64,000 bases of DNA from Alopecurus myosuroides (taxonomy: Eukaryota; Streptophyta; Magnoliopsida; Poales; Poaceae): NCBI GenBank assembly GCA_028641055.1, contig CM054060.1:53470292-53534291 (forward strand). Reading direction: 5' to 3'. Of the stretch, positions 23,338-64,000 are shown in pieces; the first letter of the stretch is position 1; each line of letters begins with the position of its first letter. The notes under the pieces were generated by a model. It had not been told where the DNA came from. It searched no databases and saw only the letters and a program-made list of their open reading frames with translations. The position numbers and the translations under genes were made by a program.

Positions 23338-23360
23338 GAATCTCGGGGCGCGATTCCTTC

Positions 23361-28340: not shown

Positions 28341-29051
28341 ATGGATCTCAGGTTCTACCCGCAGGTGGTTCGTATGACCCGTTGTGAGAGCACCGCCGGG
28401 TATCCGGAGATGCTGAGAGACATGGTCACTTATCTGGGGTTCCGTTGGGCACCAGAGTACCAGGTCTACGAGCACCAGCGAGAGTTTGAGAACACCTACT
28501 ACCAGGCTATCGTCTACATCCTGTCAGATGATGGCATGAGTGTAGCCCACCGCTACGAGGCAGTAGGTTCCACAGTGGATATGGCTGTGCAGCAGGCAGC
28601 TTATGTGAGTCTCACCGTCCTTCGTGCTGACTACTGGGGATTTGATGATTCCATCTATCGCCACATCCCCCGTGGTTACGTCAGTTCAGAGGGAGTTCAC
28701 TTCACTCTCCACGACAACTTGGACGTTTACGAGCATGATAGCTCCAGGCTGCACACCACCGCTCAGTTTGTGACACACAGTGACGCACTTGCCAACACAC
28801 TATCGCAGGAGTTGGTTTCAGTCAGGGAGCAGCTCTACCTTGCTTTGACTCGTCTGGCGACTTACACCACAGACTTTGTTGGAGATGAGCGCTTTGCACG
28901 TTTCCATCAGCCAGTTGGTCGTCCTCTACCAGATGCTGGAGGTTACGAGCCGATCAGAGGTCCACTCCTCAACCTTGGTGCTGGTTACACTGGGATTCCC
29001 CGCTTTGGAGCACAGGGAGCCGATGCTATGTACTTCACCACACCTAGTTGA
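28341..29051 (+). pseudogene. truncated second copy of ORF0
   Basis: The first 235 residues match the ORF0 at 17916 with few substitutions (for example EQT to ENT, TSEG to SSEG). Homology ends at 29047, directly after the ACACCTAG shared by both copies. One new residue and a stop come from the flanking sequence, so the basic C-terminal tail is lost. The leader from 27800 is also duplicated. Confidence 0.9.
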
Positions 29052-30568: not shown

Positions 30569-30974
30569 TAACATTACTCGAGTCAACACCGTTCAAAAAA
30601 ATCAGAAAAAATCTATAGACGATGAAAGCATTTTTAGAAAGCCACTGGCTAAGTCTCGCCAGGCTGAGTGCTAGTATGTGTACGATGATGGATCAGCAAG
30701 TACTCCTAGTACATGACGACTTCGGTGTGATAATTCTCTTAGAACATTGGGTCTCAACTTGCAGGGGGCGACAACTCTAGTCACAACCTTTTTGGTTGAA
30801 CTACGTGATAGCTCCTTTCACGCGGCGTTCTATGATTGAAGGCATTGCTTGAATCTTTTCTGGACTCCTCTTCCGGTGAATAATAATGATCCTTCCCTTT
30901 TTTGAACAAAGAAGGGCCCCTAAGAACCCTAAAGAAACGTTTTATATTCAATATAGAACTGTACATTTCATATT
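30049..30974. repeat. duplicated block, copy A (matches 63071-64000)
   Basis: The sequence from inside the Harbinger element through about 400 bp of its right flank matches 63071-64000 in the same orientation. Shared landmarks are GCATGGTACCGGGCGGAGTG, the right inverted repeat and TAA, and the flank GATGATGGATCAGCAAGTAC. The match is interrupted by small indels and by an insertion with a CA microsatellite in the other copy. The duplication therefore postdates the Harbinger insertion, or the flank belongs to a larger repeat family. Confidence 0.9.
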
Positions 30975-35474: not shown

Positions 35475-36709
35475 TGCTACTGAGCAAAGGATGCCCTGGA
35501 TACCTCTCCTCGTCTTATTAGAAAATCGTTTTTTCTATCAGCTACTGTAGTTTTTCACATATTTGGGAAGTTGGCATATTCGTTTTATTGTTACAACAGC
35601 AGTACGAAATTACTATTCTCTATGGTTATACCAAGTGAATTGAAGCGATTTCCCCATTGGAAACTGTGTTAAGGATATTAATCTGTCGGCGGTACAAACA
35701 ATCTTTATAAAAATGTTCTGCGCCCGTGGCGTTCGTCGCCTCCGGCCCACCACCGGGCAAAGCTTGGTTGGTAGAGGCAGCGGGGCGTCCTCCTCGTCTT
35801 ACCTCGAGATTATCTTTCGTTGTGGGTCGACATGTGGACCCATGGGTGGTCGGTGGCCGGCGGCGACGGCGGTCTGCTGCTGGCTCAACGGAATTAGATG
35901 TGGTGCGTGCGGCGCCCCATGGTGATGCGGAGCTGGGGCATGGTGGTTAGGGGCCGCAAGCGGGTTAGATGGGCTTGGGCAGTCCTGGAGGAGCTTGGTG
36001 CGGCTATGCTGCGATGGAGTTGCTGGCTGGGATGTGGTGGTCTTGGTCACCAGTGCGGCAATAGTGGAGCCGACTGCCGGCTTAGCAACGGAGTTGACCT
36101 AGATATTTTCCATATATGTCCGTCTTGGAGTTGTCATGGTGGGATCATGGTCCGCATTCGTCGGCGATGAGGTGTGACTAACCTCGGCAGTGATTGGTGT
36201 TTACTTTATTTTGCCTCTTCTGAAGGACCTTGGGCCAAATGATTGGGCCAGGAATAAATCTTTGCGTGCGGATGATGTCAATGCTTGCGGGCAACCTTTC
36301 CTTCTTAGAGGCGTCTTCATGACCACATTCGTGATACCTGCCATAAGCACCAGGGGAAACCATGGATCGGCTTCTCGGATGAGGTGGCGTCGGCACCACG
36401 GTGTCATTCCCTCCTTGAGGCGCTTCCTAGGTTTCTTGGAGTCCCGGGGTGTGAGATAGAGTCGATGGTGGACGCTGTTCAGAGCATGAGTTTCAGCGGC
36501 ACAATGTACACCATTGCCGAGGCTTCCTCGGTGACACCTTAGTGCATCATTTTGATCCAATCTGACCGGGTTCACTCGCCAACTACTTCTAGGCACTTAG
36601 GGGTGGACAATAAGTTGATCTATGCCACCTTGGAGCTAGGTTGTGATAGCGAAGCTTCCGTCTTTTGTGATAGAGAAGCTTCCGTCTTGGTGGTGATGCA
36701 CCTTTGAGG
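35475..36709. other. upstream region of the F-box gene and unrecognised GC-rich sequence
   Basis: The first 230 bp are AT-rich and should hold the F-box gene promoter, but I see no clear TATA box. From about 35710 to 36600 the sequence is GC-rich with short ORFs in several frames and no known domain. It could be a decayed LINE 5' region or host sequence. A short tandem repeat (GTGATAG-GAAGCTTCCGTCTT) lies at about 36646-36688. Confidence 0.4.
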
Positions 36710-36731
36710 CTCTGTGATAGGGATATGCCTA

Positions 36732-36919
36732 AGGATTATGTTATCACAAGCATGAATGGAGAGTTGATAGAAGACAACATGACCATGGTGAAAACAAACA
36801 TTCAAGAGGTTGAAAACAAGATCACATTGGTGAAAACAATAAAGCAAGATGGTGAAAACAATTCATAACAATTGTTATTTTGATAGAACAATTGTTATTC
36901 ATCAAGACAAGGGGATAGG
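36732..36919 (+). repeat. copy of the element's 3' coding tail and polypurine tract, upstream of the left LTR
   Basis: This segment matches 53133-53320 almost exactly, including a 44-codon tail reading DYVITSMNGELIEDNM and on to a stop, and the tract AAGACAAGGGGATAGG. A normal 5' LTR would not be preceded by 3' internal sequence. It is preceded by ATGCCTAAG, the same nine bases that start gag at 50450, in frame with the tail. Confidence 0.85.
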
Positions 36920-37466
36920 TGCCTCCACCAAGTCAAATGCACCATAGAAATCCTATTTTCGAATAGGTATGGTTTGTATACCATGTGTGGCCGAAATCCC
37001 ATAGTGTGGGTCGGTTTGTATCCATATGTGTGTCCTAGTTGGACTCCTAGTCCTAATAGGAGTCCTAGTCCTAGTAGGAGGTGGGTTGCTTGCGCAAGGA
37101 ACCCTTGTGGCCGCACCCCCCCTTATATTCTTGCCACCTGCATGTGGATTAGAGGAGAACAAGTTAAAGAAACCCTGGTCTTGAGATTGTATTGCTGCTA
37201 AGCATTCATCTTGAAGTATTACCAAGTCAAAGTTGCGTGATATCTTGTTATTCCATTGGGAATAGGGGGATACAGGACCACTTGTAATCTTTGATTACTT
37301 GTGCAAGAGTGTGTAGTTGAGAATATCCAAAGGGCTTGATTGTTGTTGCATCTGGCAACAGGGATCATCCAAGTGAGAGGTCTTAGTGTAGCACTAGTTA
37401 TCAGAAAATACAGAAAATCCATAAAGAGAGAGAAGCTCATTGAGAAGATTGGGCCACCCCATATCA
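36920..37466 (+). repeat. left LTR of the outer non-autonomous element
   Basis: It starts TGCCTCCACC directly after a polypurine tract and ends CCCCATATCA, 3 bp before the PBS, for 547 bp. It matches 53321-53861 with roughly ten substitutions and a few indels by eye. It contains a perfect 9-bp stem (GGACTCCTA and TAGGAGTCC, about 37038-37062) and a TATA-like CTTATATTC near 37130. Confidence 0.8.
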
Positions 37467-37469
37467 TCT

Positions 37470-37479
37470 TGGTATCAGA
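37470..37479 (+). promoter_or_regulatory. primer binding site (tRNA-Met type)
   Basis: TGGTATCAGA, followed by TTCTCC, lies 3 bp after the LTR end. Ten bases match the iMet-type PBS. It fixes the LTR end and the plus orientation. Confidence 0.85.
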
Positions 37480-38600
37480 TTCTCCAGGTTTACTCGGTGA
37501 GCAAAGTTATCCCTAGTTTTTTTATTTTTATACCTATCCAGAGAAAGCCATACAAAAATAGTTGCTTAGTTCATTGCCAGAGCCTAGATCAACACCAATT
37601 TGCATCTACCTAGTTGCTGCCTTTTGTTGATTTGTGTTTCTGTTTTTTCTATTTTTAGGTTTTCATCTTTTAGGGTTCATCTAGTTTCTTTGAGTTGCTA
37701 TCCGAAAAATCCCACCAAAAATATTAGTGCTTTGATCTTGTTGCCTCGGGAAAGTCTACACCTACATCTTGTTCTCAAGGTGATCTAGTTTTTCGAGCTA
37801 CCTTTGTTGCGGAAAAGTTGGGTTCTAAATTGTGTTTAGGTTCTAGCCATCTTCGGTTTGCAATCCTATATCAATCGCAGCAAAAAAATTCCTACCGCAG
37901 CCACTTTTCCACCCAACCGATCCGATCCCTACCGCTATCGCTACATCCTTACCATATACCCCCACGGTAACCAAAATCCCTTACCAAACGCGCACCCGCT
38001 CCTTACCGCACTCGGTTCCTAGTTGCGCTCGGACTCGCTACCGTGAGGCCAAAACGCGCGCAAATCTCTACTGCCGATGCCGCCACTTCCGCGCCCACCT
38101 CTACTCGCTATCGGATTCCACTTACCCGCGCCCATTTTTTCCTTACCGCGCGCACCACCCCGCAGCACACCACCGCAATACACACTGCCCCTGCCGTGAG
38201 CTCTGCCGTGAGCCAAATTTGCTCTGTTTTGCTGCCGTACGGCACAAAAACAGCGTTTTCTCTGCCGTGAGCCTATAGTGCTGCCGTGAGCTCGTTTTTC
38301 TTCTAGTTTTTCATAGTTTTTCTTTTGTTTACTCCCTGTTATCTCTAGGATTCTTGTCTGATCTTTGATAATCCATAGCTACAGCCATTCTACAGCTACA
38401 TTTAGGTTCCCAAAACCCAAAGACTAGCTATTTTATTGCTCTAACAGGCTGCTCATTTTATCAAATCTGTCCACTAAATTTTGTTTCCATCTACTGTATT
38501 GCTCCTAGTTGATTCAAAGGCCATTGAAAAAATCAAAAAAATAGAAAGAAAGAAAAAAATTCAAAAGAGGCCATGCTACATATCACTAGTGGAAGCTATT
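37480..38600 (+). other. leader of the outer element, left part
   Basis: Non-coding leader. It includes a low-complexity zone rich in TACCGC/TTACCG (37880-38160) and several copies of CTGCCGTGAGC (about 38190-38295). The last five bases, CTATT (38596-38600), are the left target duplication of the nested Tat element. The leader resumes at 49980. Confidence 0.6.
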
Positions 38601-39473
38601 TGTCGTGGTGGTGTCAAGACAGATGCCATAGGATGGCTAAAAGTGTGGGAACGATGGACGCTGGAGACGCTCTTGGAGGGATCACGCGACGAGAAGCCGC
38701 GTGAGGTATAGATCAAACACTGCAAACAACACGATCTACCCAGGTTCAGGGCCCTCGTGAGGAGGTAAAACCCCTACTCCTGCCTTTCTCTATGTATTTG
38801 GTTGTCTCACCGAGTAGCCACAGTACAATGGTTCTTGCTACCGAGTAGCCACTCTTCTCTCTACGTGATGAACTAGGTCAAGAATCTAGGGTTTCCTGCC
38901 TTGTGATCGTCGTCCCTCGCGCAGGAGGCGGCGGGGCACCTTATATACACGGTGCCCAGCCGGATACAGCCAAATACAAACAAGTGTCGACATTGTGTGC
39001 ACACCGCCCTTCTTTCGAGTTGCCGCTGACAGATTTGGCTTCTAAGCTTGTCCTGATGCGGAAAGTCGTTGGGCAAAACCAAGTACCCAGTCTGTTATCA
39101 CTGTGCGAACACAGAGTAGGTCCCCCCTATCCTCCGACGGTCTGCTGCCACACTGTCACCGTCAGGCACGCCGGCCCAGATGAACAGTGATGTGAATAGT
39201 GCCAAGTACGGACCCCGGATACGCGGGATTCTGTGTCAGAACAGCTCCTTTGACTTCTGGCCCGAGTAGGTTCCCGCCAGTCTTACTCGGACCAGCTCTT
39301 CTACTCGAACTGATATAACTTGCTTGATATCTCCTTCTGGTCATCTTTCTGTAAGACCGAGTAGCAGTCGACCGGGTAGCGAGTACCGGGTAGGCGGCTA
39401 CTCGACCAACTTCTCTTCCGTCCCTTCGCCTTTACCACTTGCCTTTACCCTACTCGGGGGTAACCCCCCGACA
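38601..39473 (-). repeat. 3' LTR of the nested Tat element (left)
   Basis: 873 bp with TGTCG/CGACA ends. Being left of a minus-strand element it is the 3' LTR. On the inner side it is followed by GCAGTCCCCGAAGC, which on the minus strand is the polypurine-type tract (CTTCGGGGACTGC). Confidence 0.95.
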
Positions 39474-40173
39474 GCAGTCCCCGAAGCTGGTAGAGTCCTG
39501 CGAACTCGTTCACTGGGCCCTGCCAGCTTAAAACCAACCTTGGCAACCTTGCCCTTGAACCTCAATTTGCCGAGTAAAGCCTCCGAGTAGCACTCTGGGG
39601 ATTACCTTGAGTTTCTTTCCTTCCTAATAGAGCTAGCTTCCTACTCTGTAACCGAGTAAAAAGACTTAGGGAATTTCTTCAATCGAATCTTCGCAGCGCA
39701 GAGCACAATCCAGCCTTCCGGGCTGCGACTGGGCACATGTCACGCATCTAGGACCGCGACGCCTCGCTGCCCAGGACCTGACAGGCCACGCGCCCAGTTT
39801 TCACGGAGTGGGCCCACTGGCTCGTAATGTCCCATCACGCGCAGTAATCGCCCACGATCTCGTCGTGGGATCTAATGCGGCCGTTGCGCGCGCGTTCCGC
39901 GCTGTGTGCGTTTCTAACCGGCCACAGACCCCACGCCGCACGATTTATTGCCACGATCGATCCCACTACTCCCAATCGTAACGGTAATCCGTGGCGCGGT
40001 ATAAGTACCCCCACGGTAACTTCCTATTCTCCTTCCGCTTCATTTTCCTCTTCTGCCTCCTCATTCCTCCGCCGCCAGAGAGCTCTCCGCCGCCGCGCAA
40101 CTCTTTGCGCCGCCGCGGGTTTCTCCATTCCACCAATCTCTTCCAATTTCTCGCCACTTTCCTACTCGCTGTC
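39474..40173. other. 3' non-coding region and promoter of the antisense gene
   Basis: On the minus strand this is the region before the 3' LTR. On the plus strand it holds the likely promoter of the antisense gene, with TATAAGTA at 40000-40007, 167 bp before the start codon. No gene is seen inside it. Confidence 0.55.
40000..40007 (+). promoter_or_regulatory. TATA box of the antisense gene
   Basis: TATAAGTA, preceded by GC-rich sequence and followed by a pyrimidine-rich leader, sits at a suitable distance from the ATG at 40174. Confidence 0.5.
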
Positions 40174-43100
40174 ATGGCTCGCGGTGACAGCGCTCGCGCC
40201 GGCTGGGCCGGCTCCGACGTCACCGCGGAGGACTGCCAGTGGCTTGTGAACACCCGGAGGGTTCCTCCCGGTGTTCGCTGCCGGCCGTCCGACGGCGAGC
40301 TTTTTCCGACACCGCGGGAAGGCGAACACGTTGTCTTCCTCGCGCACTTCGCGCGGGGATTCGGCCTTCCTGCCTCCAACTTCCTCCGCTCTCTTCTCGA
40401 CCACTACGGTCTCCAGATGCATCACTTGCCTCCCAACGCCGTCGTCTTCCTCTCCTACCACGTCGTGGTGTTTGAAGCCTTCCTCGGCGTTCTTCCCACG
40501 ACGGAGACGTGGTCGAAGTACTTCTTCTTCCGCCAACAGAACCAAGGCAAGAAGGACGGGGCGGCCGCCAGCAGTCGGACAACCGACACCGGCAGCGCCA
40601 TGATGGTGCAGCGGACGGGAACCAACCACCCTCGCATCAAGGGTTTGGACTCCGTCCGCAAGTGGCAGAAATCCTTCCTGTATGTGAAGAATATGCCCGC
40701 CACGAAGGAAGCCAAGATTGAAGACCGCATCAATCTGCCCCCTTGGAGCAGCCGAGCTCCTACCGGGCAGAATTGGAAGAACAAGCCTTCCAACAGCAGG
40801 AATCTGGTGCAGATGGAGGAGCGGCTCGCCTATCTAAGCGGCGAAGGGCTCAAGAGCGACGATCCAGTCGCCTGTTGGATTCGCAACCGAGTGCTGCCTC
40901 TGCAACGACGCTCCCACCCCATGTGCTACATGGGCGGCCCCCGCGACTGTACTCGGACGACTACGTTCGAGCTCAGCAACGCGGATGTCGCCGCCTACGC
41001 CCGGTCCATCCTCACCACTGGCCTTCGAGACAACTGGCAGTATGGGTTCATCCCATACAGCCGCACGAAGCCGATTCCACGGGTACGTTCTTCTTACTCT
41101 GCTTCTTGTATACGCAATCCGAGTAGATAGCTTCCTCTCCTTGCTGCGACTAGCCTTCGTACTCTGCGCTGAGTAGGGCTCTCAGGAGAAGCACTTAGGC
41201 TTGATGTGCTTTATGTTTGCACGCCTTGCTGAGTAGGACACTCAGCCGAATCGCTTAGGCTTAATGTGCTTGATGTTTGCACGCCTAGTCGGGTAGGATA
41301 CTTAGGGGAAACACTTAGGCTTAATGTGCTTGATGTTTGCATGCCTTGCCGAGTAGGACACTTAGCCGCATCGCTTAGGCTTAATGTGCTTGATGTTTGC
41401 ACGCCTAGTCGGGTAAAGTGCTTTCATGCTATTCGGCTAACTTGTGATGTCTCTTTATCCTTCAGGTTCTTGATCGCCAGCTCGCTGAGAGCAGTGAACG
41501 CTTCGAGAGCAACTGGTTTGAGGACCGAGAAGAAGATGACGTGGTCTCCTTCGAGACCGCGGACAAGCTCAATCCTCCTGAAGCCGCCCAGGCGAGTGAG
41601 CATCACACGGACTTGTCTCTTCGTGACTGGTCCGAGGATGAAGGTGAAGGTAATTGAACTTATCCCCTCTGATCGTGAGCAGCGCAAACTAACTGCTTTC
41701 ACCTTCTGAATTGCTTTTGTTCCTTTCTATTTCACAGAGGGTGGTGATGCTGAGGACGCAGACGAGGATGAGGACGAGGACGAGAGAGCCCTGGTCGTCA
41801 AACCTCTTGCAGTTGCCGCTCCTGTTACCCGCAAGCGGGCGGGCAGCGGCGCCCAAGAGCCCCCTGCCAAGAAGAAGAAGCCGACCGAGAAGACGACCAA
41901 GAAGGTCGTGAAGAGGAAACGACCACCGATCCCTTCCCGCAAGGGGTAAGTTCTTTCTCGGTTGCACGCTTCGGTTCACCTCGTTCTTCTCGGTTGATCC
42001 CAATCCTTTTGCTTCGCTGTTTTCTCTTAGTTTCCTCTGCTCTCTTCTTATTTCTGAACGTAATTTTCTCTTCAGAGCCCCTTTGGACGCGGACGACGCT
42101 CTTGCGTCCACTGAGACCCAGAAGAAGGCCGCCATCGACGTTGACGAGCTTATTGACCTTGATGACGACGAGAACAACGCCGCCAACGCACAACCAGAGG
42201 GCACCAATGCCCAGAACGTCGAGCCTGAGCAGTAGTCCCGCGCCGAGCGGGAGGCGCAGGACGCTGCTCGCCAAGAGATGCCACCTTCTCCTCCGGCCAA
42301 CACTGCCGAGGAGAATCAAGAACAAGACACCGAGATGCACCATGACGCCGCCCTTGAGCGGCCGGGAACAGAACAGGAGCAGCCAGCCACAGGGGATGCT
42401 GAACAAGAAGACCCCGAGTCCCAGGCGCGGGTAGAAGCAATGGACGCCTCACAGCCAGATCCCGCTGCCGAGCAGCAGGTAGAAGACGCGACTGGGCAGT
42501 ACCCTCTGAGCGACGCGCAACCAATCGCTGCGCAGGGTAGCGCCCAGCCGGATGCCGCACCGGACAGCGCGCCCCTGGCGCCACCAACTGATCAAGGTAG
42601 CGCTCAGCCAGACTCTTCCTTGGTGCAGAACATCAAGGCTGTAGCCAGCCCTCCGGCCAGGCCGGTTACGAGGAAGAATGCTCAGGACGCTGCAGAGAGG
42701 AAGGCCGCCCAGAAGAAGGCCGCCGAGAAGAAGAATACCGAGAAGAAGCAAACCGAGAAGCCAATCGCCGAGAAGCCACCTGCCCAGAAGGAGAAATCGA
42801 AGAAACGGGCTGCCGAGATGCCGCCGCCAACATCAACTGCCCAGTCCAGTCAACTGGCTATTCGCGAGCCTGGCGCGGCTGCTGTCGCCGCTGCTGCATC
42901 CGGCGTCTCAGATCAGCCCGGCTACCCTCCTTATATGGTGAATGTCAGCCAGCAGTACCAGGTTGGCTTCACCTCTAAGGAACAGAAGCTTGCTCTTCAG
43001 AAAGGGAAGAAGGCCGTGGCAGTAGACTCCAGGCCCCGGCCCCAAATCAAGACAAATCTCTCTCCATTTCTTCGCGTGGAGTTCAGGACCAGGCGGTGAC

Positions 43101-45306
43101 GTCCCAGGGCCTTGAGCAAGTACTTGACTTGATTGGCTTCATCGATGCCAAGTGGGACAGCAAGGTTCTTGGCAACTCGAACTGGAACGACACCGATTTG
43201 GGCGACATAGACCATATGCGTGTCGACTGGAACAAGGTAGACCTGGGTTACAAACCCATGACTGTCTCATCTACCTCTGCTACACTTGCCGCCAAGATGT
43301 TTGTCCACCGCAAGAACGCCGAAGACCTTGAGCAATCCTACGCGGTAAGCTCCTACTCATCCTCTCTAAGCTGCATTTTCACTTCTCTTCTACTTGTCTT
43401 CTTTTCCTTATCCATCACCCAGTCCCCGAGATTCTGGCCGAGTAGGCGGATTCTCTCCCGAGTAGCCGCCTTCTCGGGTTGAATCTCTATTCCTTTGCCT
43501 GATTCTCTTCTCTTTAGCTTCTCAGAATAGCGTACTGAAACGGACCGACTTGCATCGTCGGCTACTCTGGAACCATGCCGTTGCCAAGAGACGCATTGCC
43601 GCCTTGGAAAAAGAGAAGATAGCCGCCGAGGCGGCTGATAAAGAAGTGATGAATAGCACCCTGAGGCTTTCTGAAGTTGAAGGTACGCTTTTAGCTACGC
43701 GGTTCTTGCGTTTGGTGTTTACGCCCGCTTCTGCTTTTTGCGCTAACCAATTTTACTCTTCAGGGAAGTTGAAAGCCCTGTCCGACGAGCATGAGAACTG
43801 CCGTGCCTTCGTCGAGAATGGCCAGGCCACCATCAAGAGATTGGAAGGTATGTTGCCGTCTTCTCAGCTTGTCTCTGTATTCCTTTCTTCGCTACTCTGT
43901 TGATCGTGCTTTGCTTTTCTCAGAAGATCATAAGAAGTTTGCCGAGGAACATCAAGACTGTCTCAAGCCTGCTGAGGTGCAGCAGCAATTGTCAAGCCAA
44001 TCTGTCGCGCTGCAGAAGGAACACGCTACCGAGATGGAGGAGCTCCAACTCCAGCTGCGCACTGCACTTCAGGATGCCCTAGACTTAGCAGCCGAGAAGA
44101 AAGAGCTGCTCTCCGAGAAGAAGAAGAATGAAGCAGCAGCCAAGGCCAGGGAGAGAGTTCTCGAGCAGGAGTGCGAGGTGCTAAAGAAGAGCAATGCTGG
44201 GCTCTTCACTCAGCTAGAGGAGCTCCGTTTGATTAAAGAGAAACATCTATCCAACGAGGAATCATGGAAGAACCTGCTGCAAGGAATGCGCTATGATTTG
44301 AATAGTAAGTGCTTCCTTTTCTTGGCTTCATCGCTACTCGACTGTACTTTCCTTCTCTGCTTCTCGTTTCTGATCTTCTCTGATAGCTTTTGCAGAAGTT
44401 TTCCCTGATATTGTGTCTTCTTGCGCACCCGCCCTGGCCAAGGCCCGAGCAGCTCGTGTTGAGAAGGGCGAGCCTATGGACACCCGAGCAGAAATTGAGG
44501 AGAGCATCCTGGTCATGCAAGGGCAGCTCCAGCGCCTAGCCGGCGTGGGCACCGAGCTGGTGCGCGTCGGCTTCCAGCTCCACGATCTCTTCTGGCCACA
44601 GGACCGCGCGCCAACAACCATCCGTGGTCTGGCCCTGAAGCTGTGCGGCGTGAAGGCCGAGCTGAAGAAATGGCGCGCATCGGGAGCTCGGGCAGGCGCG
44701 GACATGATGCTTCTCTTTATCACCAGTTGGTACGAGAACCTGAACTTGCAAATTGTTCGCGAGATGCGCCAAGACTCCAGGTGGGAGAAGAACGCCGACT
44801 GCGTGGCTATCCGCCAGCTTGTCGCTCACGAGGTCGCCCAGTATGCTGATACTGCGACCTTCTTCGACGGCCCCACTGAGCCCGACACCGAGGTGGACGA
44901 AGGCGAGGAGGGCGACGACGAAGAGACGGACACGGACGAGCTGGACCTGAGCTGCTTCGAAACTCCCGAGAAGGGGAAAGGGAAGGCCGCAGTCGTCGCA
45001 GGTAGCGACGAGGAGGACGAGGGCGAGAAGATGTCAATCGACACCGCCGCGCTCGAGTTCGGCACCTCGTCAGGAGCTGCCCTCGACGACACCCTCAACC
45101 TTCAAGCCCAAGCCCCCGGCTCCATCTCCGCGACAGCGCCTGTCTCAGTGTCCACGGCCACTTCAGACCAGGTAGCCACCGAGCCCGACGCCGAAGACGA
45201 AGCAGCGAAGGTTGTTGATGCCAGTACAGAGGCGGACGCGACCAATGCCACTATTGAAGACGAAGCAACCAAGGCCAGCACCGAGAACATCGCTACCTCG
45301 ACATGA
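40174..45306 (+). pseudogene. antisense gene of the nested Tat element, eight exons, nearly intact
   Basis: Inferred exons: 40174-41082, 41466-41649, 41738-41945, 42076-43344, 43526-43682, 43764-43847, 43924-44304, 44396-45306, all with GT-AG introns and compatible phases. Exon 1 holds the grass putative gypsy-type transposon domain (HFARGFGLPASNFLRSLLDH, MHHLPPNAVVFLSYHVVVFE). The middle is acidic then lysine/alanine rich. Exons 5-7 encode a long coiled coil (ALEKEKIAAEAADKE; LQLQLRTALQDALDLAAEKK). Exon 8 ends in an acidic tail. Two breaks lie in exon 4: an in-frame TAG at 42233-42235 and a frameshift near 43050-43095. Function is unknown. It converges on gag-integrase with a 657-bp gap. Confidence 0.75.
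41162..41414. repeat. 60-bp tandem repeat in intron 1 of the antisense gene
   Basis: About four copies with an exact 60-bp period. Each unit contains CACTTAGGCTTAATGTGCTT or a close variant, then GATGTTTGCACGCC and a GAGTAGG/GGGTAGG block. It lies wholly within intron 1, so it does not affect coding. Confidence 0.95.
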
Positions 45307-45963
45307 TCTTTTCCTGCAACTCATCCCGTAAACACTTATCAGATCCCCGGAATGCCGGGTGCAAATGTATCATACTATTTATGCCGTTTTGCTACTCATT
45401 TTTATTCACACTCGTTGTTTTCAACTTAATCATTTTGTTCAGCCTTGGCCTGATGCCGGGTTGCGTTATCATGCGAGTCCCCGAGTTGCATTTCTTATTC
45501 ACTCTCTCTTTTCGTCTCAGCTCTACCCGCAACTTGTTGCTTTTTTGGTATTCGAGTCACAAGAGTTGAAGAGCAGAGCTGCAAATACTTAGCCGCTTAG
45601 AAACAATCGTAGTAACGCAGCCCACCACTTAACCGAAAAGTAGAGACAAAGAATAACAGATAATGCACCCTACTCGGTTCCTGCACTCTTCCTTTTCTTA
45701 GTAATCTTTCTTGTGCTTATTGACCTTTTGCTTGTTCTCTTGCTTGCCATGAAGCCGGGTTTCGGACAGCAGCAGAGTCGAAGAGTTGGCATGTAGGTTT
45801 AAACACAATACTTGACGTACTTACGAATTTTGAAGCAGAGCAACCGAATAGACAAAAAGTAAGGCCGAGTAGAAACACTTAGAGCAATTTTGGACGAGGG
45901 CAGTCCCCGAGTTCAATTTCAGATTGCAGAGTAGAATTGAGAATACATACACATTTTTTCTCA
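45307..45963. other. intergenic gap between convergent genes of the nested element
   Basis: Non-coding. It carries two more copies of the AGTCCCCGAG motif (about 45476 and 45902) also found beside the 3' LTR and at the gag-integrase junction. Confidence 0.5.
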
Positions 45964-48900
45964 CTAATGAAAGCGACAAAGTAGGGCTACATTCCAGGGA
46001 CGCTTGAATTCCTCTCCAGCTTTGTCTACCCTGTTCGCCTGTGATGGACGCACGTCCACAAGATAGTAAGCATCATTGTGCAGCGCTTTGCTCACAATGA
46101 AAGGTCCTTCCCACGGAGGGGAGAGTTTGTGCATCCCGGCTGTGCGTTGCACAAGCCTAAGGACCATGTCTCCTTCTCGGAAAACCCTTGGGTTCACCTT
46201 TCGGCTATGATAACGCCGCAGGTTTTGCTGGTAGATAGCCGAACGTGACAGAGTCAGCTCTCTTGCTTCTTCAAGCAGGTCAACGTCGTCTTCTCGAGCT
46301 TCTCTCGCCTCCACCTCAGTGTAGAGGGTTACTCGGGGGGAGTCATGCTCTAAGTCTATTGGCAACACGGCCTCAGCCCCATATACCAAGAAGAACGGCG
46401 TGTAGCCGGTTGACCGGTTAGGGGTAGTCCTTAGACTCCACAACACTGCTGGCAACTCGTCTAGCCAACACCCAGGTGTTTTCAGCAGTGGCTCAATCAG
46501 CCTTGGCTTTATGCCAGCCAGCACCATGCCATTTGCTCTTTCAAGTTGCCCATTGGAAGTGGGATGCGCGACTGACGCGACGTCTAGTAGGATGTGCTTA
46601 TCTCTGCAGAATCGCACCATTGCTCCCTCAGCAAAATTTGTGCCATTGTCCGTGATGATGCTGTGCGGGTAGCCGTATCTCAGGATCACATCCTTCAAGA
46701 ATTTCACAGATGTAGCTCCATCGCACTTCCGAATAGGCTTCACTTCAATCCACTTGGTGAATTTGTCAACCATGACCAGGATGTGAGTCATATTGCCTCT
46801 AGCCGGCTTGAAGGGACCAACCATATCCAAGCACCATACAGCAAATGGCCAAGTAATGGGAATGGTTTTCAACTCGGAAGCAGGCATGTGAATCTTACTT
46901 GCGAACATCTGGCAGCCATTGCATTTCCTCACGATGTCTTCGGCTTGCTGCAGTGCTGTGAGCCAGTAGAAGCCATGCCGAAAGGCCTTCTTGACCAATG
47001 CCCGAGAAGAGGCGTGATGCCCACATTCTCCTTGGTGTATCTCTACCAGAATTTCTTCTCCTTCTTCTGGTGCCACGCAGCGCTGCAGCACACCAGTAGC
47101 ACTTCTCTTGTGCAGCACATCTCGGAATATAGTGTATCCCTTGGATCTTCTCTGAATCTGCCTTGCAGCAACTTCGTCTTCTGGCAGAGTATCGTCCCTT
47201 AGGAAGGATAATATGGGCATAGCCCAACTCGGTGTCTCCCGTGTAGGAAACACTGGTTCGTCCACTTCCATCGCAACAGGTACCTCTATCTCCTCTGGTG
47301 GGTTAGGAGCACTCCTTTGAAGCCCTGAGCGGTTGGCGAGAACCTCCTCAATGAATGCGACAGTCCCCGGGTCGAGGACAGCAGTCCCCGAGTGGGGAGC
47401 GGCAGTCCCCGAGTAGGGAACGGCAGTCCCCGAGTTCTGTGTTGCATTGAGCCAAGTGCGAGCAGGACCCTCTAGCATTTGCGGCACATAGCGCACAGCC
47501 CACCTCCGGTTGCCACTCGCGATATGGACCGCGGTGACGTAGTCGTTGAGCCAGTCTTCTGGCTTGGTGCTGCCGTTGTAGCTCTTGGTGCCCCTTGCGA
47601 GCTGGAAGTTCTTCACGGACGGCTCGTTCATGATGCGCGGACCAAAACATTCAGGGCCGGGAGGCCCCGTGTTTTCTAGCCGCGCGGACAGATTGATTCG
47701 ATCCAGCTTGTACCGAACATCCGCGGGCTCCAGCACGCGCTCTCCTACTCGGTCCAGGATATCATATCCAGCCAGCCCCATGGCCGAGTTGCCATCATTG
47801 TATCTATCCTCCTCCACGGCCGTAGGCTGCTCCACCAAGTTGGCTACTCGGCCAGCTGCACGCGGCTGAGCACCAGCAGCCTGACGAGGCCTCTGCCGAG
47901 CAGGCTGAGCAGCTCGCTGCCGGGAAGGATTAGGGCGATCTCCACCTCGCGAACGGCTATGAGCTTGATGGGCTTGCAAGCCTGCTCCAGCAGAGTTGTG
48001 TTCCTGGCCGGACTGTCGCGGCACAGCGTGCTGTTTCGCGGCGACAGTCGGGTCATACACCTGCATTTGCCTGTTCCTTCCCGAGGCGCCACTGCGGTCC
48101 CTCTCGCGGCTGGGGTGCGGAGATGAGGCCTGATCGTTAGATCTGGCCGCATGCGAGTGCACCACCTGCGAGCCGCCAGCACCCGGGTTGGCTTTCCGGA
48201 ACTCCTCGTTCTGCCTAGCAGCCTCCAGCACTAGCTCATTGAGCCTTTCTTGCGGCCTAACGCGCGCGTCGCCGTCGAGATGAGGCAACTCGGCGGCCAC
48301 GGCCTCTGCAGCTCTAAGTGTTTTGGCGGGGGTGCTGTACCTAGGCCTAGTGGAGGTGTTTGCGGTGGCGGACTGACTGGGAACCTCTCCAACGGTCGCC
48401 ATCTCGGCGCCTAAGTTGCGCCGCGTAGCGCCTACCCTGCTAGCTCTCCTAGTAACTGGTGTGAAACCATGAGCCTTGTTGTACTCATTTTGGTCTAGGC
48501 TAGGCTCTAGCCTAATCCTATCCAGCTCCGCCTGCTCGACGAGGAGCTCCTGGCGTTGCCGCTCGAGCTGCTCTTTCATGGTCAGGAGCTCGTTGTCGGT
48601 GGGAGGCAGCATGCCAGTCCGCACGGCGGAAGCAGGGATGGTTGGAGTAGTGGAGGGGACGCGGTTGCTCTCCTTCTCGTAGGGCTTGTGGGTCTTGCCG
48701 CCAGCACTCGAGCCAGCGACATCGTCGATGACGTTTGCGGCGCCAGCCGCGCCCTTGCCGGCGTCCGCGGCCAGGCCGTCCACCATTACCTCCGCGCAGT
48801 CCGCTGAACAACGCGCAGGCCTTCCGCGTGCTGCGATCACAGCAGGAGGATCCTCTGCGACCAGCACCTCCTCCGGGAACTTGTTGACGGTGATGGTGGC

Positions 48901-49053
48901 GACGTAGACGAGGTGTGAGCCGAAGGAGATCACCTTGCCGCCCTCCGGCATGGCTCTGCTGCCAAAGCAGCCTGCGTTGTCGGTGACGAAGTCGAAGGAG
49001 CCGAATTTGTGGACAAGGCCACAGACTACGCGCTCCGCCGAGGAAGATCCCAT
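45964..49053 (-). CDS. gag-integrase fusion ORF of the nested Tat element
   Basis: One open frame of 1,029 residues. The start (MGSSSAERVVCG) is the first ATG after the LTR/PBS; the frame also runs open into the LTR. A long low-complexity N-terminal half precedes the Tat gag core (YNGSTKPEDWLNDYV, RYVPQMLEGPARTWLNATQ, about residues 490-537). The frame then passes through a heptapeptide repeat (47361-47440) straight into integrase: HHCC finger (HQGECGHH, CNGCQMF, about 672-718), catalytic LDMVGP, ITDNGTNF and GQLERANG with 35-residue spacing, and the C-terminal module. Nucleocapsid, protease, RT and most of RNase H are missing. The protein could bind or integrate DNA but not copy RNA. Confidence 0.92.
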   Translation of the reverse strand: MGSSSAERVVCGLVHKFGSFDFVTDNAGCFGSRAMPEGGKVISFGSHLVYVATITVNKFPEEVLVAEDPPAVIAARGRPARCSADCAEVMVDGLAADAGKGAAGAANVIDDVAGSSAGGKTHKPYEKESNRVPSTTPTIPASAVRTGMLPPTDNELLTMKEQLERQRQELLVEQAELDRIRLEPSLDQNEYNKAHGFTPVTRRASRVGATRRNLGAEMATVGEVPSQSATANTSTRPRYSTPAKTLRAAEAVAAELPHLDGDARVRPQERLNELVLEAARQNEEFRKANPGAGGSQVVHSHAARSNDQASSPHPSRERDRSGASGRNRQMQVYDPTVAAKQHAVPRQSGQEHNSAGAGLQAHQAHSRSRGGDRPNPSRQRAAQPARQRPRQAAGAQPRAAGRVANLVEQPTAVEEDRYNDGNSAMGLAGYDILDRVGERVLEPADVRYKLDRINLSARLENTGPPGPECFGPRIMNEPSVKNFQLARGTKSYNGSTKPEDWLNDYVTAVHIASGNRRWAVRYVPQMLEGPARTWLNATQNSGTAVPYSGTAAPHSGTAVLDPGTVAFIEEVLANRSGLQRSAPNPPEEIEVPVAMEVDEPVFPTRETPSWAMPILSFLRDDTLPEDEVAARQIQRRSKGYTIFRDVLHKRSATGVLQRCVAPEEGEEILVEIHQGECGHHASSRALVKKAFRHGFYWLTALQQAEDIVRKCNGCQMFASKIHMPASELKTIPITWPFAVWCLDMVGPFKPARGNMTHILVMVDKFTKWIEVKPIRKCDGATSVKFLKDVILRYGYPHSIITDNGTNFAEGAMVRFCRDKHILLDVASVAHPTSNGQLERANGMVLAGIKPRLIEPLLKTPGCWLDELPAVLWSLRTTPNRSTGYTPFFLVYGAEAVLPIDLEHDSPRVTLYTEVEAREAREDDVDLLEEARELTLSRSAIYQQNLRRYHSRKVNPRVFREGDMVLRLVQRTAGMHKLSPPWEGPFIVSKALHNDAYYLVDVRPSQANRVDKAGEEFKRPWNVALLCRFH
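47361..47440 (-). repeat. 21-bp in-frame tandem repeat at the gag-integrase junction
   Basis: CAGTCCCC starts at 47361, 47382, 47403 and 47424, an exact 21-bp period. On the minus strand each unit encodes seven residues of the form SGTAVPY, SGTAAPH, SGTAVLD and PGTVAFI. The unit core is the same as the motif next to the 3' LTR (39474-39484). Confidence 0.95.
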
Positions 49054-49083
49054 CCGAACGGTAACTCCAGCCAGTGCCGCTGG

Positions 49084-49105
49084 TTGCCCCACGGTGGGCG
49101 CCAAC
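49084..49105 (-). promoter_or_regulatory. primer binding site of the nested Tat element
   Basis: On the minus strand the bases after the LTR read GTTGGCGCCCACCGTGGGG. TGGCGCC at this position indicates priming by a tRNA ending GGCGCCA. I do not assign the tRNA species. Confidence 0.7.
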
Positions 49106-49979
49106 TGTCGTGGTGGTGTCAAGACTGATGCCATAGGATGGCTAAAAGTGTGGGAACGATGGACGCTGGAGGCGCTCTTGGAGGGATCACGCGACGAGTA
49201 GCCGCGTGAGGTAAAGATAAAACACTGCAAACAACACGATCTACCCAGGTTCAGGGCCCTCGTGAGGAGGTAAAACCCCTACTCCTGCCTTTCTCTATGT
49301 ATTTGGTTGTCTCACCGAGTAGCCACAGTACAATGGTTCTTGCTACCGAGTAGCCACTCTTCTCTCTACGTGATGAACTAGGTCAAGAATCTAGGGTTTC
49401 CTGCCTTGTGATCATCGTCCCTAGCGCAGGAGGCGGCGGGGCACCTTATATACACGGTGCCCAGCCGGATACAGCCAAATACAAACAAGTGTCGACATTG
49501 TGTGCACACCGTCCTTCTTCCGAGTTGCCGCTGACAGCTTTGGCTTCTAAGCTTGTCCTGATGCGGAAAGTCGTTGGGCAAAACCAAGTACCCAGTCTGT
49601 TATCACTGTGCGAACACAGAGTAGGTCCCCCCTATCCTCCGACGGCCTGCTGCCACACTGTCACCGTCAGGCACGCCGGCGCCAGATGAACAGTGTTGTG
49701 AATAGTGCCAAGTACGGACCCCGGATACGCGGGATTCTGTGTCAGAACGGCTCCTTTGACTTCTGGCCCGAGTAGGTTCCCGCCAGTCTTACTCGGACCA
49801 GCTCTTCTACTCGAACTGATATAACTTGCTTGATATCTCCTTCTGGTCATCTTTCTGTAAGACCGAGTAGCAGTCGACCGGGTAGCGAGTAGCGGGTAGG
49901 CGGCTACTCGACCAACTTCTCTTCCGTCCCTTCGCCTTTACCACTTGCCTTTACCCTACTCGGGGGTAACCCCCCGACA
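49106..49979 (-). repeat. 5' LTR of the nested Tat element (right)
   Basis: 874 bp, TGTCG to CGACA. On the minus strand it holds a TATATAA box (about 49446-49453) inside an inverted repeat (GGCACC and GGTGCC). The likely transcription start is some 30 bp further along the minus strand. Confidence 0.95.
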
Positions 49980-50449
49980 CTATTTTCTATTGGAATTTTT
50001 GTGGACAAATTGAGCAATCTTGTGCCTGTTTCATTGAGTATTTGCTAGTGTCTTTCTCGTGGTTGCAAAATCTTTACCATATATTTTCTAAGCCACAATT
50101 GTCTCCAAGAGTGAGAGTGTTTCCTTTTAGTTATTTTTATCACATTGAGCAGTGCATTGGAGTTGTTATTTTGGTGTTTTTAGGAATCCCAACCAAGCCC
50201 CACCAAATACCCTGTTTTTGCATTGTAACACTTGAGAGCCTGGTTATTCTCTTCTCACACTTGACACAGTTCTCATTGGTACTTGTTGGTAAGTTGATCC
50301 TATTCACTTTGGAACAGTAAGTGAACCTTCTTTGCTGGTTTGAGTGAGTTTGAGAGGCACCACAACCCATTGATTATTTGTTCACTAACCTATTAATCAT
50401 GAGTTTTGCTAGTGAATCTTCTGTGCAGGGTGACAAGGAAGCTGATTAA
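49980..50449 (+). other. leader of the outer element, right part
   Basis: Starts with the right-hand CTATT target duplication (49980-49984) and continues the leader interrupted at 38600, up to the gag start. No gene. Confidence 0.75.
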
Positions 50450-52353
50450 ATGCCTAAGACAAAGACTGGTGAAGATCTATGTACATGGGCAGATTTTAAT
50501 CTCTTTAGAGGAAGGGTTGCTAATCGGATTGAGCAAAGAGTTGAGAAGAAAATTGAAGAATATGATGATGTCCTAAGGAAGGATTTGACAGTGATTATTG
50601 AGAAACAAAATGAGGCTGCTAATTCAGTGCATGTTCTCAAGAAGCCATGACTACTCTGACAAGGGAAGTTGCCAATATCTCCACACAATTACAAAGGGCT
50701 AATCTAGTTGCTAATCATGAAGAAGGCCGAGCCATTGCATATGGAGGTCGTGGCAATTATGCACCTAGAAGGGTACCATTGGAGGATAATAGAGAAGAGG
50801 GTGGCCTTGGGAAACCAAAATTCTTTGTGCCTACTCTCACATGTGATAATGATGATGTTGAGGAGTTCTTGATGTGGGAATTGAAGATAGAAAAGCTATG
50901 GAGATTTCATAATTACACTGATGAGAGGAAAATCAAGCTAGCATCTTCTGGATTTGATGGTTATGCTCTCTTGTGGTGGGATGGCATCATAAGATTGAGG
51001 GAAACACAAAATCAACCAGAAATTACTACATGGGCTGAGATGAAACAACTTATGACAGACAGGTTTGTTCCAACAAATTATTTGAGGACTCTCTATGACA
51101 AATTGCAAAATTTGAAACAAGGAACAAATTCAGTGGATCAATATTACAAGGAGATGGAATTAGTGCTACAAAGAGCTCGGGTTGTTGAAGCAAAAGAGCA
51201 AACAATGCAAAGATTTCTTTCAGGATTATCTTTTCAAATTAGATGCATTGTGAGGCATGTTCAATATAGCAATATGACAGAATTGTTGCATCAATCAAGG
51301 GAGGCAGAAAAGAGGTTGGCCGAGGAGGTTACTATGGCTCCAAGGAGGATTTTTCTATCAAGATCTTCTTGTTTTTCACCTCCAACACCTCCAATTACTC
51401 CAATTCGAGATAGTACACCATCCAAACCCGAGACAAGCATCACTAATACAAGGAAAACACCACAACCAGCAGCTAGTGGAAGTGGTTCTACTCAATCAAC
51501 AGCAAGGCATAGAGACATGACATGCCATTCTTGTGGAGGAAGAGGGCACTTTAAGAGAGAATGTCCTAACAAGAAAGTTATGGTGATCAATGCTAATGAG
51601 GAGTATGAGAGTGGAGATGATGCTGATCCTAATGGAGAGGATATATATGATGATGATGATGATGATGATGATGATGGTCCACTTAATGCTTTTGCTATAA
51701 ATTATCCAACCATTGTTTGCACCAAGGCTTTGAGTGTTATTCCTAGCAATGATGAGAGCCAAAGATGCAATTTATTTCAAACCAAGGCAATTGTTGGACC
51801 TAATATGGCTTGCAAGGTGATCATTGATGGAGGGAGTTGCAGAAATCTAGCAAGCAAGGAGTTATGTGCAAAGCTAAGGTTGAATTACAATCCACACCCA
51901 CATCCATATTATATTCAATGGTTAAATAACAAGGAAGAAATCAAGGTATGCCATATGGTGAGAGTGGATTTTCAAATTGGACCATACAAAGATACAATTG
52001 AGTGTGATGTGGTTCCCATGACAGTTTGTCACTTATTATTTGGAAGACCTTGGCAATTTGACAAGAAGGTTACACACATTGGGAGAGCAAACACATATCA
52101 CTTGAATTGGAATAATAAGGATATTGTTTTGAGGACTATGACACCACAACAGATTGTGAATGAATCAAGACACAAAATTGAGATGAATCTAGAGAAGGAG
52201 AGTGAAAACACCAAATCTATGGATGAAGACAAGTCTAGGCCGAGTGGAAGGAATAAAGGAGTGAGCCTTTTAACTAATGAAATAATTTCTCTTCCTAGTG
52301 TTGTTTCTTGTGTACAGGTTGCTATTGCAGAAAGGGAGCACAAAGGAACATAA
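50450..52353 (+). pseudogene. gag and aspartic protease of the outer element, with a frameshift
   Basis: ATGCCTAAG at 50450 opens a 66-codon frame that ends at 50648-50650. The rest continues in another frame from about 50640, consistent with loss of one base. Gag core: FFVPTLTCDNDDVEEFLMWE, FDGYALLWWD, then FVPTNYLRTLYDKLQNLKQG. One CX2CX4HX4C zinc knuckle (CHSCGGRGHFKREC) is followed by an aspartate run and a protease domain with VIIDGGSCRNLAS in place of the usual DTG/DSG, and LLFGRPWQFD. The frame ends with TAA at 52351-52353. DGG variants are usual in CRM/Reina-like elements as I recall. The product would form particles and process itself. Confidence 0.85.
51649..51676 (+). repeat. (GAT)n microsatellite within the gag-protease frame
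   Basis: About nine GAT units coding for a run of aspartates between the zinc knuckle and the protease domain. A length change here would only alter the acidic run if in multiples of three. Confidence 0.95.
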
Positions 52354-52368
52354 CAAACATCACACATA

Positions 52369-53214
52369 TTGGAGGAATATGCCACGGGTTCTAGCGTTCT
52401 TGCTTGTGATATGAAGGTTATTTTTGAAGAAAGGGAGCTACAACCTTCAAACTCACAAGATATTTATGAATTCATACCTACTATAAATGAGGAGCATAGT
52501 ATTGACAAAGGTATTGATTTCGGTTTAGTAAAAACAAGTATTGAATTATGTCATAATTTACAACCATATCATACTATGATGAATTCAAAATTTCACATTG
52601 TGGTTCTTATTACACATAAAGAAGTACTTGCTAAGATACCATCTAGTGATATTGTCTATTATATCATGTTAAAAGAACCAATTGATGTGCAATGTGCTAT
52701 GAATAAAATTGATTATGATAATTCTAGCACATATGATACTAGTTTCAAATTTAATTTGATTGGTGATTATAACTTGAGTAAAATTTTCATGCTACATCAC
52801 ATATGTATAACTTATGATAAAGTGGCCGAATTAAATAATATGTTACCTTGGATAGACGAATTACAAATTTTTACATATGGGCATAATATTACACATATGT
52901 TTAGTTTACCACAATATTGGTTGGATACATGTGCTTTTAAAACAAACTTCACTTATATTTGCAATTATGATTGCTATGGGAAGAAAGGATATGACTTTTA
53001 TGTGTTGTTTTCATACAAATTTCGTGATCATATGTCATATGCACGATATTTTGATTTCCTAAGCACTAATGAATGCCATTATAGATACATATATTGTGCA
53101 TACACGTTGTTCTTTTTGTTTCTTCCACTTTCAGGATTATGTTATCACAAGCATGAATGGAGAGTTGATAGAAGACAACATGATCATGGTGAAAACAAAC
53201 ATTCAAGAGGTTGA
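52369..53214 (+). CDS. unrecognised ORF after protease, in the place of RT
   Basis: This frame is the same as that of gag-protease and is separated from it only by the TAA at 52351-52353. It gives 281 residues (first ATG 52369) with no RT, RNase H or integrase motif. It is rich in Tyr, Asn, Asp, His and Cys (for example MLHHICITYDKVAELNNMLP, HMFSLPQYWLDTCAFKTNFT, YICNYDCYGKKGYDFYVLFS) and becomes hydrophobic near the end (YTLFFLFLPLSG). Beyond about 53130 the frame enters sequence shared with 36732, which in another frame continues the 3' tail. I cannot name a family. It may be a captured gene or a strongly diverged relic. Confidence 0.55.
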   Translation: MEEYATGSSVLACDMKVIFEERELQPSNSQDIYEFIPTINEEHSIDKGIDFGLVKTSIELCHNLQPYHTMMNSKFHIVVLITHKEVLAKIPSSDIVYYIMLKEPIDVQCAMNKIDYDNSSTYDTSFKFNLIGDYNLSKIFMLHHICITYDKVAELNNMLPWIDELQIFTYGHNITHMFSLPQYWLDTCAFKTNFTYICNYDCYGKKGYDFYVLFSYKFRDHMSYARYFDFLSTNECHYRYIYCAYTLFFLFLPLSGLCYHKHEWRVDRRQHDHGENKHSRG

Positions 53215-53270
53215 AAACAAGATCACATTGGTGAAAACAATAAAGCAAGATGGTGAAAACAATTCATAAC
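53134..53270 (+). CDS. 3' tail exon-like ORF before the polypurine tract
   Basis: A 44-codon open tail (DYVITSMNGE to GENNS, stop 53268-53270) is preceded by TTTGTTTCTTCCACTTTCAG, a textbook 3' splice site. The same tail at 36733 is instead fused in frame to ATGCCTAAG. It ends about 50 bp before the polypurine tract, as a pol C-terminus would. Whether it is expressed by splicing is inference. Confidence 0.4.
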
Positions 53271-53304
53271 AATTGTTATTTTGATAGAACAATTGTTATT
53301 CATC

Positions 53305-53320
53305 AAGACAAGGGGATAGG
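53305..53320 (+). promoter_or_regulatory. polypurine tract of the outer element
   Basis: AAGACAAGGGGATAGG directly before the TG of the right LTR. The same tract precedes the left LTR at 36904-36919. Confidence 0.75.
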
Positions 53321-53861
53321 TGCCTCCACCAAGTCAAATGCACCATAGAAATCCTATTTTCAAATAGGTATGGTTTGTATACCATGTGTGGCCGAAATCC
53401 GATAGTGTGGGTCGGTTTGTATCCATATGTGTGTCCTAGTTGGACTCCTAGTCCTAATAGGAGTCCTAGTCCTAGTAGGAGGTGGGTTGCTTGCGCAAGG
53501 AACCCTTGTGGCCGCACCCCCTTATATTCTTGCCACCTGCATGTGGATTAGAGGAGAACAAGTTAAACCAAAGAAACCCTGGTCTTGAGATTGTATTGCT
53601 GCTATGCATTCATCTTGAAGTATTACCAAGCCAAAGTTGCGTGATATCTTGCTATTCCATTGGGAATAGGGGGATACAGGACCACTTGTAATCTTTGATT
53701 ACTTGTGCAAGAGTGTGTAGTTGAGAATATCCAAAGGGCTTGATTGTTGTTGCATCTGGCAATAGGGGTCATCCAAGTGAGAGGTCTTAGTTATCAGAAA
53801 ATACAGAAAATCCATAAAGAGAGAGAGAAGCTCATTGAGAAGATTGGGCCACCCCATATCA
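53321..53861 (+). repeat. right LTR of the outer non-autonomous element
   Basis: 541 bp, TGCCTCCACC to CCCCATATCA. It is followed by CTCTG (53862-53866), which also precedes 36715. A shared GGACTCCTA/TAGGAGTCC hairpin is present. It lacks an 11-bp insert (GTGTAGCACTA-like, near 37386) seen in the left copy. Confidence 0.85.
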
Positions 53862-63070: not shown

Positions 63071-63479
63071 GCGGCGATGAAGACGAACACCAAATTGGCG
63101 TTCTTGCTAGGATGAGACTCGGCGACAATGATCCCGCGGTAGGTGGCATGGTACCGGGCGGAGTGCTTGCTCATTTTGGACCAGATGTTGACTTCTACGG
63201 TGACTACAACATCCCCACCAGTGACTACAACCGCCCCGCCGAGGAGGATACAACAACTATGCCGACATCCCTGCCGAGACACCTGCATGAACAGTCCCGC
63301 TGAGCACCACTCCGCCGCCGCCCACCGCCGCGGAGGAAGAGTTCACCGTCTGATCGCCCAAGGACATTGTTTCATATTTCGGCCCCGAACATATGCCCTT
63401 TTTTTTTGCTAGCGGAACCGAATATTTAAATTTTACGCCTTTTTTATTTGTGTGGGGCCGACACGATTGGAAAGGTATT

Positions 63480-63522
<43 letters not shown>

Positions 63523-64000
63523 CCAAATGGTGTGCCTAGGGATGCGCCGAAAGTGATTCGCCGCGTGCAGGGGGCGAACAAGTGGAGATGCTCTAACATT
63601 ACTCGAATCAACACCGTTCAAAAAAGGAAGTCGGAAAAACCTATAAACGATGAAAGCATTTTTAGAAACGCACTGGCTAAGTCTCGCCAGGCCGAGGGCT
63701 AGTATGCGTACGATGATGGATCAGCAAGTACTGCTAGTACATGACGACTTCGGTGTGGTAGTTCTCTTAGAACATTAGGTCTCAACTTGCAGGGGCGACA
63801 ACTCTTGTCACAACCTTTTTGGTTGAACTACGTGATAGCTTCTTTCACGTGGCGTTCTATGATTGAAGGCACTGCTTGAATCTTTTCCGTACTCCTTTTC
63901 CGGTGAATAATAATGATCCTTCCCTTTTTTGAACAAAGAAGGGGCCCTAAGAACCCTAAAAAAAGTTTTATATTCAATATAGAACTGTACATTTCACATT
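63071..64000. repeat. duplicated block, copy B (matches 30049-30974), runs off the window
   Basis: It includes the right end of a Harbinger element (GGAGATGCTC 63584-63593 followed by TAA) and its flank, in the same order and strand as copy A. The left parts of the two Harbinger copies differ. Homology reaches the last base of the window. Confidence 0.9.
63482..63517. repeat. (CA)n microsatellite
   Basis: About 18 CA units inside the Harbinger portion of copy B. It is part of an insertion of roughly 80 bp absent from copy A. Confidence 0.97.

Follow-up and report, generated by a model that had tools for sequence, protein, structure and literature searches.

TR-GAG elements are non-autonomous LTR elements in which only a gag-type ORF is left, and they are not known to contain integrase. 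Retand and Ogre elements both carry an archaeal-type RNase H (aRH) between RNase H and integrase, Transposase_28 being a feature of Retand and the plant mobile domain a feature of Ogre, according to the excerpts of PMC6317226 used here. In the excerpted Retand survey PMC11963269, antisense Transposase_28 ORFs occur in 97% of clusters and tandem arrays in about half. A literature search for elements consisting of gag and integrase found none; the copia element in the excerpts of PMC3036077 has the usual gag-integrase-RT order. Among the proteins fetched in the searches described below, P0100, listed with gag and integrase only, retains an RT remnant.

The window, i.e. the whole analysed stretch of 64,000 nucleotides of Alopecurus myosuroides DNA, contains a complete LTR retrotransposon at 38601-49979 (11,379 bp, minus-strand element), delimited as follows:

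49106..49979, minus strand: 5' LTR, 874 bp, TGTCGGGGGG...CACGACA, 98.28% identical to the 3' LTR
38601..39473, minus strand: 3' LTR, 873 bp
49980..49984, minus strand: target-site duplication AATAG, 5' side
38596..38600, minus strand: target-site duplication AATAG, 3' side
49086..49103, minus strand: presumed primer-binding site TGGCGCCCACCGTGGGGC, 2 nt past the 5' LTR, assigned by position and sequence

The insertion has two LTRs, TG...CA ends, a primer-binding site by position and a target-site duplication, and the intact ends and 5-bp duplication reported in a first-pass annotation of this DNA were found again, AATAG standing on either side. That annotation had also called the primer-binding site perfect; a suitable stretch does follow the 5' LTR, but its grade is lowered here to presumed. 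The same stretch doubles as coding sequence in the gag frame (QLAPTVG). The LTRs differ by 14 substitutions (6 transitions, 8 transversions) at 873 aligned sites (1.6%) and by one indel, and the K2P distance of 0.0162 corresponds to about 0.62 My at 1.3e-8 per site and year, a rate also applied in the excerpted text of PMC1940013. Both the difference of about 1.6% and the recent insertion proposed earlier are thus borne out.

The element is nested in an older unit (36732-53861) with direct repeats at 36732-37466 and 53133-53861, about 740 bp long and 96.2% identical; compared with the 98.3% identity of the inner repeats, this fits insertion into an older element. The older unit holds a 568-aa gag/zinc-knuckle ORF at 50647-52353, and in the space between the outer repeats that the inner element leaves free, the only further ORF of at least 200 aa is that at 52369-53214 (281 aa). 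Elsewhere in the window, a chromodomain gypsy element at 12949-29047 has gag, protease, RT and integrase ORFs between very long flanking repeats (about 5.67 kb, 98.8% identical), and direct repeats 81-92% identical lie at 30049-30974 and 63071-64000, the second cut by the window end. A second, different Tat-type fragment occupies 200-3259 on the plus strand; its RT, RNase H and integrase regions keep their order but are broken into several frames by frameshifts and stops, and it agrees with P0071 at 59-63% across its four longest pieces, among them one of 60 columns. Its integrase, at 2024-3259, is 52% identical to that of the nested element and is the only integrase relative among the DNA searched.

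Relatives were sought in three protein searches, which gave 7, 113 and 726 matches (the search with 7 matches scored 7,990 candidates sharing most words); 240 proteins of these 846 rows were fetched and examined, including 120 of the 726. Relatives were found in Lolium, Aegilops, Triticum and Brachypodium, a spread consistent with a Pooideae host; the first-pass annotation had spoken of Triticeae. Between pol and the 3' LTR of the nested element, the opposite strand carries the following ORFs:

39991..41130, plus strand: antisense ORF, 379 aa, Transposase_28 (PF04195), E 2.2e-16
42278..45306, plus strand: further antisense ORFs of 273, 128, 117, 205 and 297 aa

The first of these is the Retand marker, an antisense Transposase_28 ORF between pol and the 3' LTR, and a 60-bp tandem array lies in the same region. 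A Pfam scan of the 273-, 205- and 297-aa ORFs gave nothing better than E 0.59, and Rfam at gathering cut-offs found nothing over 36000-52000. In the integrase relatives, RT and RNase H precede integrase, and both are missing from the present copy; the relatives also carry the archaeal-type RNase H (PF13456) before integrase, which is absent here, although the linker that follows PF13456 is retained. Judged by these sequence features, the insertion is probably a Ty3/gypsy Tat-type element of the Retand lineage, in a copy from which RT, the formal criterion, is absent. The original assignment to a Tat-type gypsy element accords with the Transposase_28 ORF, the domain order of the relatives and the element's sizes.

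The coding part of the element is organised as follows, residues being numbered from the ATG at 49053:

45964..49134, minus strand: open gag'-integrase frame of 1,056 aa if begun at the 5' LTR ATG, 1,029 aa if begun at the ATG at 49053
47446..49134, minus strand: gag remnant, N-terminal part and beginning of the capsid domain (tblastn of P0011 and P0097)
47437..47445, minus strand: deletion junction, about 9-10 nt assigned to neither flank; gag homology ends at 47446, linker homology (P0024) begins at 47436
47361..47435, minus strand: 21-bp tandem repeat, 3.6 copies, SGTA-type heptads; native linker preceding integrase
45967..47298, minus strand: end of the linker and integrase including its C-terminal part; HHCC, D743, D802, E838

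From 45964 to 49053, the minus strand contains 1,029 codons without a stop, as initially reported; the frame remains stop-free further upstream, to a TTG at 49230, and the 1,056-residue version has zero internal stops. The earlier start probably needs revision. The motif LAPTV, encoded across the primer-binding site, was present in 16 of the 240 fetched relatives (of 846 match rows), its leucine being residue 11, after a start MA, in 12 of the 16, and in tblastn residue 1 of both P0011 and P0097 aligns at 49134. Because of this placement and these alignments, the true start is likely to be the ATG at 49134, inside the 5' LTR. The gag frame apparently begins within the LTR and reads through the primer-binding site (49086-49134, minus strand), a layout seen also in 12 of the 240 fetched relatives. 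The plus strand was rejected as the frame carrier, there being 22 stops in the plus frame.

The gag half ends abruptly. The tblastn alignments of P0011 (residues 1-556) and P0097 (1-591) both stop at 47446. In P0011, a Lolium polyprotein, Retrotrans_gag covers residues 542-631, and the break corresponds to residue 556; P0101 and P0097 have a whole Retrotrans_gag followed by about 500 further residues. In the open frame, Pfam Retrotrans_gag was unmatched even with a reporting limit of E 10, and the scan found no zinc knuckle, protease, RT or either RNase H domain, nor the remaining capsid. As read from these alignments, the gag half is truncated within the capsid domain and has no gag core. The Tat gag core of the first-pass annotation must accordingly be withdrawn, whereas the loss of protease, RT and RNase H that it described agrees with the lack of domain matches in the frame. 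Out of an intact gag, protease, RT, RNase H and integrase, by which autonomy is judged, the integrase domains alone were matched.

The integrase half, in contrast to gag, appears whole. Pfam matched rve (E 4.7e-12) and the H2C2 zinc domain (E 0.0002, under its curated cut-off). The HHCC residues are H673, H679 or H680, C711 and C714, and the DD35E triad is D743, D802 and E838, with 35 residues separating the last two. The sequence matches PFV integrase across 341 residues and also Ty3 integrase. Decay of the integrase was considered and not seen: at near-invariant sites (at least 95% conserved in 40 relatives), 2 of 106 are changed here, both within the last four residues, and the same test among the 40 relatives gave 0 to 9.6% changed, so that the present copy falls inside their spread. 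The sample comprised those of the 240 fetched relatives that span at least 401 of 444 residues; the present copy was compared with all 40 and each relative with the other 39, and its 106 sites include less strict ones. Few changed sites are expected of a young copy. A structure predicted from an alignment of the present copy with 25 of the 240 fetched relatives had a mean pLDDT of 65.1 and a pTM of 0.36, and because these values are modest, domain matches of the model were used and its domain arrangement was set aside. In Foldseek, the top PDB matches of the model were PFV and Ty3 integrases (E 2e-17 and 2e-14), with TM 0.6-0.7 against foamy-virus core structures and TM 0.25-0.34 (rmsd near 30) against full-length PFV and Ty3 chains. 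By its residues, the retroviral-type integrase is complete (HHCC, DD35E core and C-terminal part), as had been claimed.

With the gag match stopping at 47446 and the linker match taking over at 47436, the two flanks of the deletion lie no more than about 10 nt apart; P0008 gives a weak alignment (28%) from 47454. The distance from the LTR to the end of pol is 3,142 bp; in the 12 domain-complete Pooideae clusters published in PMC11963269, as excerpted (the printed 5.501 for Poa annua 1b was taken as 5,501), it is 5,947-6,778 bp, so that 2.8-3.6 kb are missing. Matches to both sides of the junction were found in 14 of the 240 fetched relatives (of 846 rows), many of them gene models that are possibly spliced; the spacing from gag to integrase is 185-986 residues in 13 of them, compared with 49 here, and the fourteenth, P0025, has the sides in reverse order. 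Only a short repeat had been noted between the two halves. The repeat is indeed there, at 47361-47435, but it is the native linker: 217 of the 240 fetched proteins (of 846 rows) match the integrase side, 152 of these extend 40 residues or more upstream, and 69 of those 152, with examples from Lolium, Aegilops and Triticum, show a period-7 xGT repeat just ahead of integrase. The repeat was therefore rejected as a product of the deletion, and in general a repeat at such a junction can be native. The 9-mer CGGGGACTG occurs seven times in the window (0.36 expected), always on the minus strand inside the present element: at 39475-39483, one base short of the 3' LTR, in the place expected for the PPT; at 43420-43428; at 45901-45909, about 55 bp past the integrase stop; and four times in the linker repeat (47361-47432). 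By this distribution, the core of the linker repeat recurs at the border of the 3' LTR.

From these results, the element is probably a Retand (Tat) LTR retrotransposon that has undergone an ordinary internal deletion and kept its frame by chance. Its ancestor would have been a full-length element with gag, protease, RT, RNase H, archaeal-type RNase H, SGTA linker and integrase, and with a long stretch 3' of pol that bore an antisense gene. One internal deletion, about 2.8-3.6 kb in size and caused by a template switch in reverse transcription or by illegitimate recombination in the chromosome, would then have fused the capsid part of gag to the linker, the in-frame fusion being a matter of chance with a prior of one in three. 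We infer rather than observe a single event, because the full-length parent was not found in the searched proteins and contigs. Expression of the frame would yield a shortened Gag joined to integrase, with an incomplete capsid domain and with neither zinc knuckle nor protease. The RNA would retain LTRs and the primer-binding site and could be copied only with proteins of a full-length relative. The deletion may have preceded the insertion, in which case the element arrived deleted, having moved in trans, in few copies, or it may have happened in place afterwards; intact ends and the target-site duplication fit either order alike, and movement in trans is possible.

At half the LTR divergence, about 25 substitutions and 0.83 stops are expected in the ORF, giving a probability of 0.44 of no stop. 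With frame-breaking indels estimated from the single LTR indel, the probability of the frame being open since insertion is 0.13 (range 0.001-0.42); with the rice ratio of 0.095 deletions per substitution (PMC1940013, excerpted text), it is 0.09 (0.017-0.27 over the uncertainty of the substitution count). Staying open for about 0.6 My (P about 0.1) is thus mildly lucky. As the element was chosen for its openness, the open frame is weak evidence for selection, and an open fused frame in any element 0.6 My old should be treated with caution as a sign of function. The suggestion in the first-pass annotation that the fused protein may be useful therefore loses its force: gag and integrase are open in the relatives, one third of deletions are in frame, and the probability of openness is about 0.09-0.13. 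An open frame and an undamaged integrase would also be expected of a useful protein, and the P of about 0.1 leans slightly in its favour. We infer no selected role for the fusion.

The most serious competitor of chance survival, though itself rather unlikely, is an amplified non-autonomous family, in which the deletion arose in a source copy, the RNA was copied in trans by full-length Retand and the fused protein is incidental. Intact ends with the target-site duplication and the recent insertion agree with it, as do precedents in the excerpted literature: defective Retand clusters of at least 10 copies exist, 9 of 10 in Poales (PMC11963269), and wheat and barley contain many gag-only elements that partner full-length ones. 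The same junction, however, was found in 0 of the 240 fetched proteins (of 846 rows), and its exact 24 bases gave 0 matches in prokaryote contigs and 0 in viral contigs, as expected there. This counts weakly against such a family, for no close family member is present in these data either: the nearest proteins among the 240 fetched of 846 rows reach 84% identity over 55 residues on the gag side and 81% over 435 residues on the integrase side, which indicates that the element's own family is missing from the searched data and that the absence of a second copy says little. A pattern scan for related loci gave 3 viral-contig and 23 prokaryote-contig matches, with no confirmed relative. An assembly error, a collapsed or mis-joined repeat that dropped the middle of a full-length element, is the least probable of the explanations weighed. 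The 3' breakpoint does touch a 21-bp tandem repeat in a repetitive kind of element, but an error would need the clean joining of two coding frames, both LTRs and the target-site duplication fit a single insertion event, and nesting order and divergence are consistent with each other (98.3% inner, 96.2% outer).

That the Gag'-integrase fusion was kept because it functions in a semi-autonomous element, for instance by supplying integrase at Gag-like amounts or by competing with full-length integrase, strikes us as improbable. Its 1,056-aa frame is open with catalytic residues present, PFV and Ty3 integrases are matched by sequence and by a predicted model of modest confidence, and Gag-Pro semi-autonomous elements have been proposed in wheat (PMC9744471, excerpted text); against this, the capsid is cut early and the zinc knuckle and protease are gone, so that packaging and release of the integrase would both need help, and openness arises by chance in about 1 in 10 copies of such age. 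Equally slim is the chance that Triticeae harbour a small family of Retand derivatives, recently active, with a maintained fusion acting in trans on a full-length partner, as integrase donor or dominant competitor. Such a family might have been overlooked because the published Retand survey starts from RT, and RT-based surveys are blind to such elements. If the junction were common to many copies under purifying selection, it would mean a retrotransposon parasite donating integrase, not Gag, for which the literature searched offered no precedent.

Regarded as a chance deletion derivative, the element can be placed among described systems. Like Retand (excerpts of PMC11963269 and PMC6317226) it has an antisense Transposase_28 ORF and a tandem array in the pol-3'LTR region, and the relatives of its integrase are proteins in which an additional RNase H (PF13456) precedes integrase. 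Its sizes compare with those published in the excerpted PMC11963269: LTR 874 bp (315-1,194), internal region 9,632 bp (7,380-12,869) and pol-3'LTR region 6,490 bp (up to 6,566). It differs in having no protease, RT, either RNase H domain or most of the capsid, and the make-up of gag and integrase is found in 0 of the 63 Retand clusters tabulated in that survey, which began from intact RT and is blind to RT-less elements. The defective clusters among them (10 of 63) are likewise domain-lacking grass elements with intact ends; as excerpted, they are without gag, gag and protease, or RNase H and integrase, and none consists of gag and integrase alone. A Lolium multiflorum gene model, P0088 (832 aa), resembles the present frame in having gag and an integrase zinc domain with no RT or RNase H match, but its Retrotrans_gag is whole, 187 residues lead to the zinc domain, rve is unmatched and the junction is another one; it is possibly a spliced model. 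On sequence grounds, other polymerase-poor gag-integrase models do exist, of different make-up. RLG_Sabrina, RLG_WHAM and RLG_Quinta (excerpts of PMC9744471, PMC5738225 and PMC11302176) are also polymerase-less and are thought to be moved by full-length partners; amplification has been demonstrated for them, whereas one copy was found here. Those that code retain Gag or Gag-Pro but not RT and integrase, while in the present element, whose gag is truncated also in comparison with TR-GAG, it is gag that is broken and integrase that is kept.
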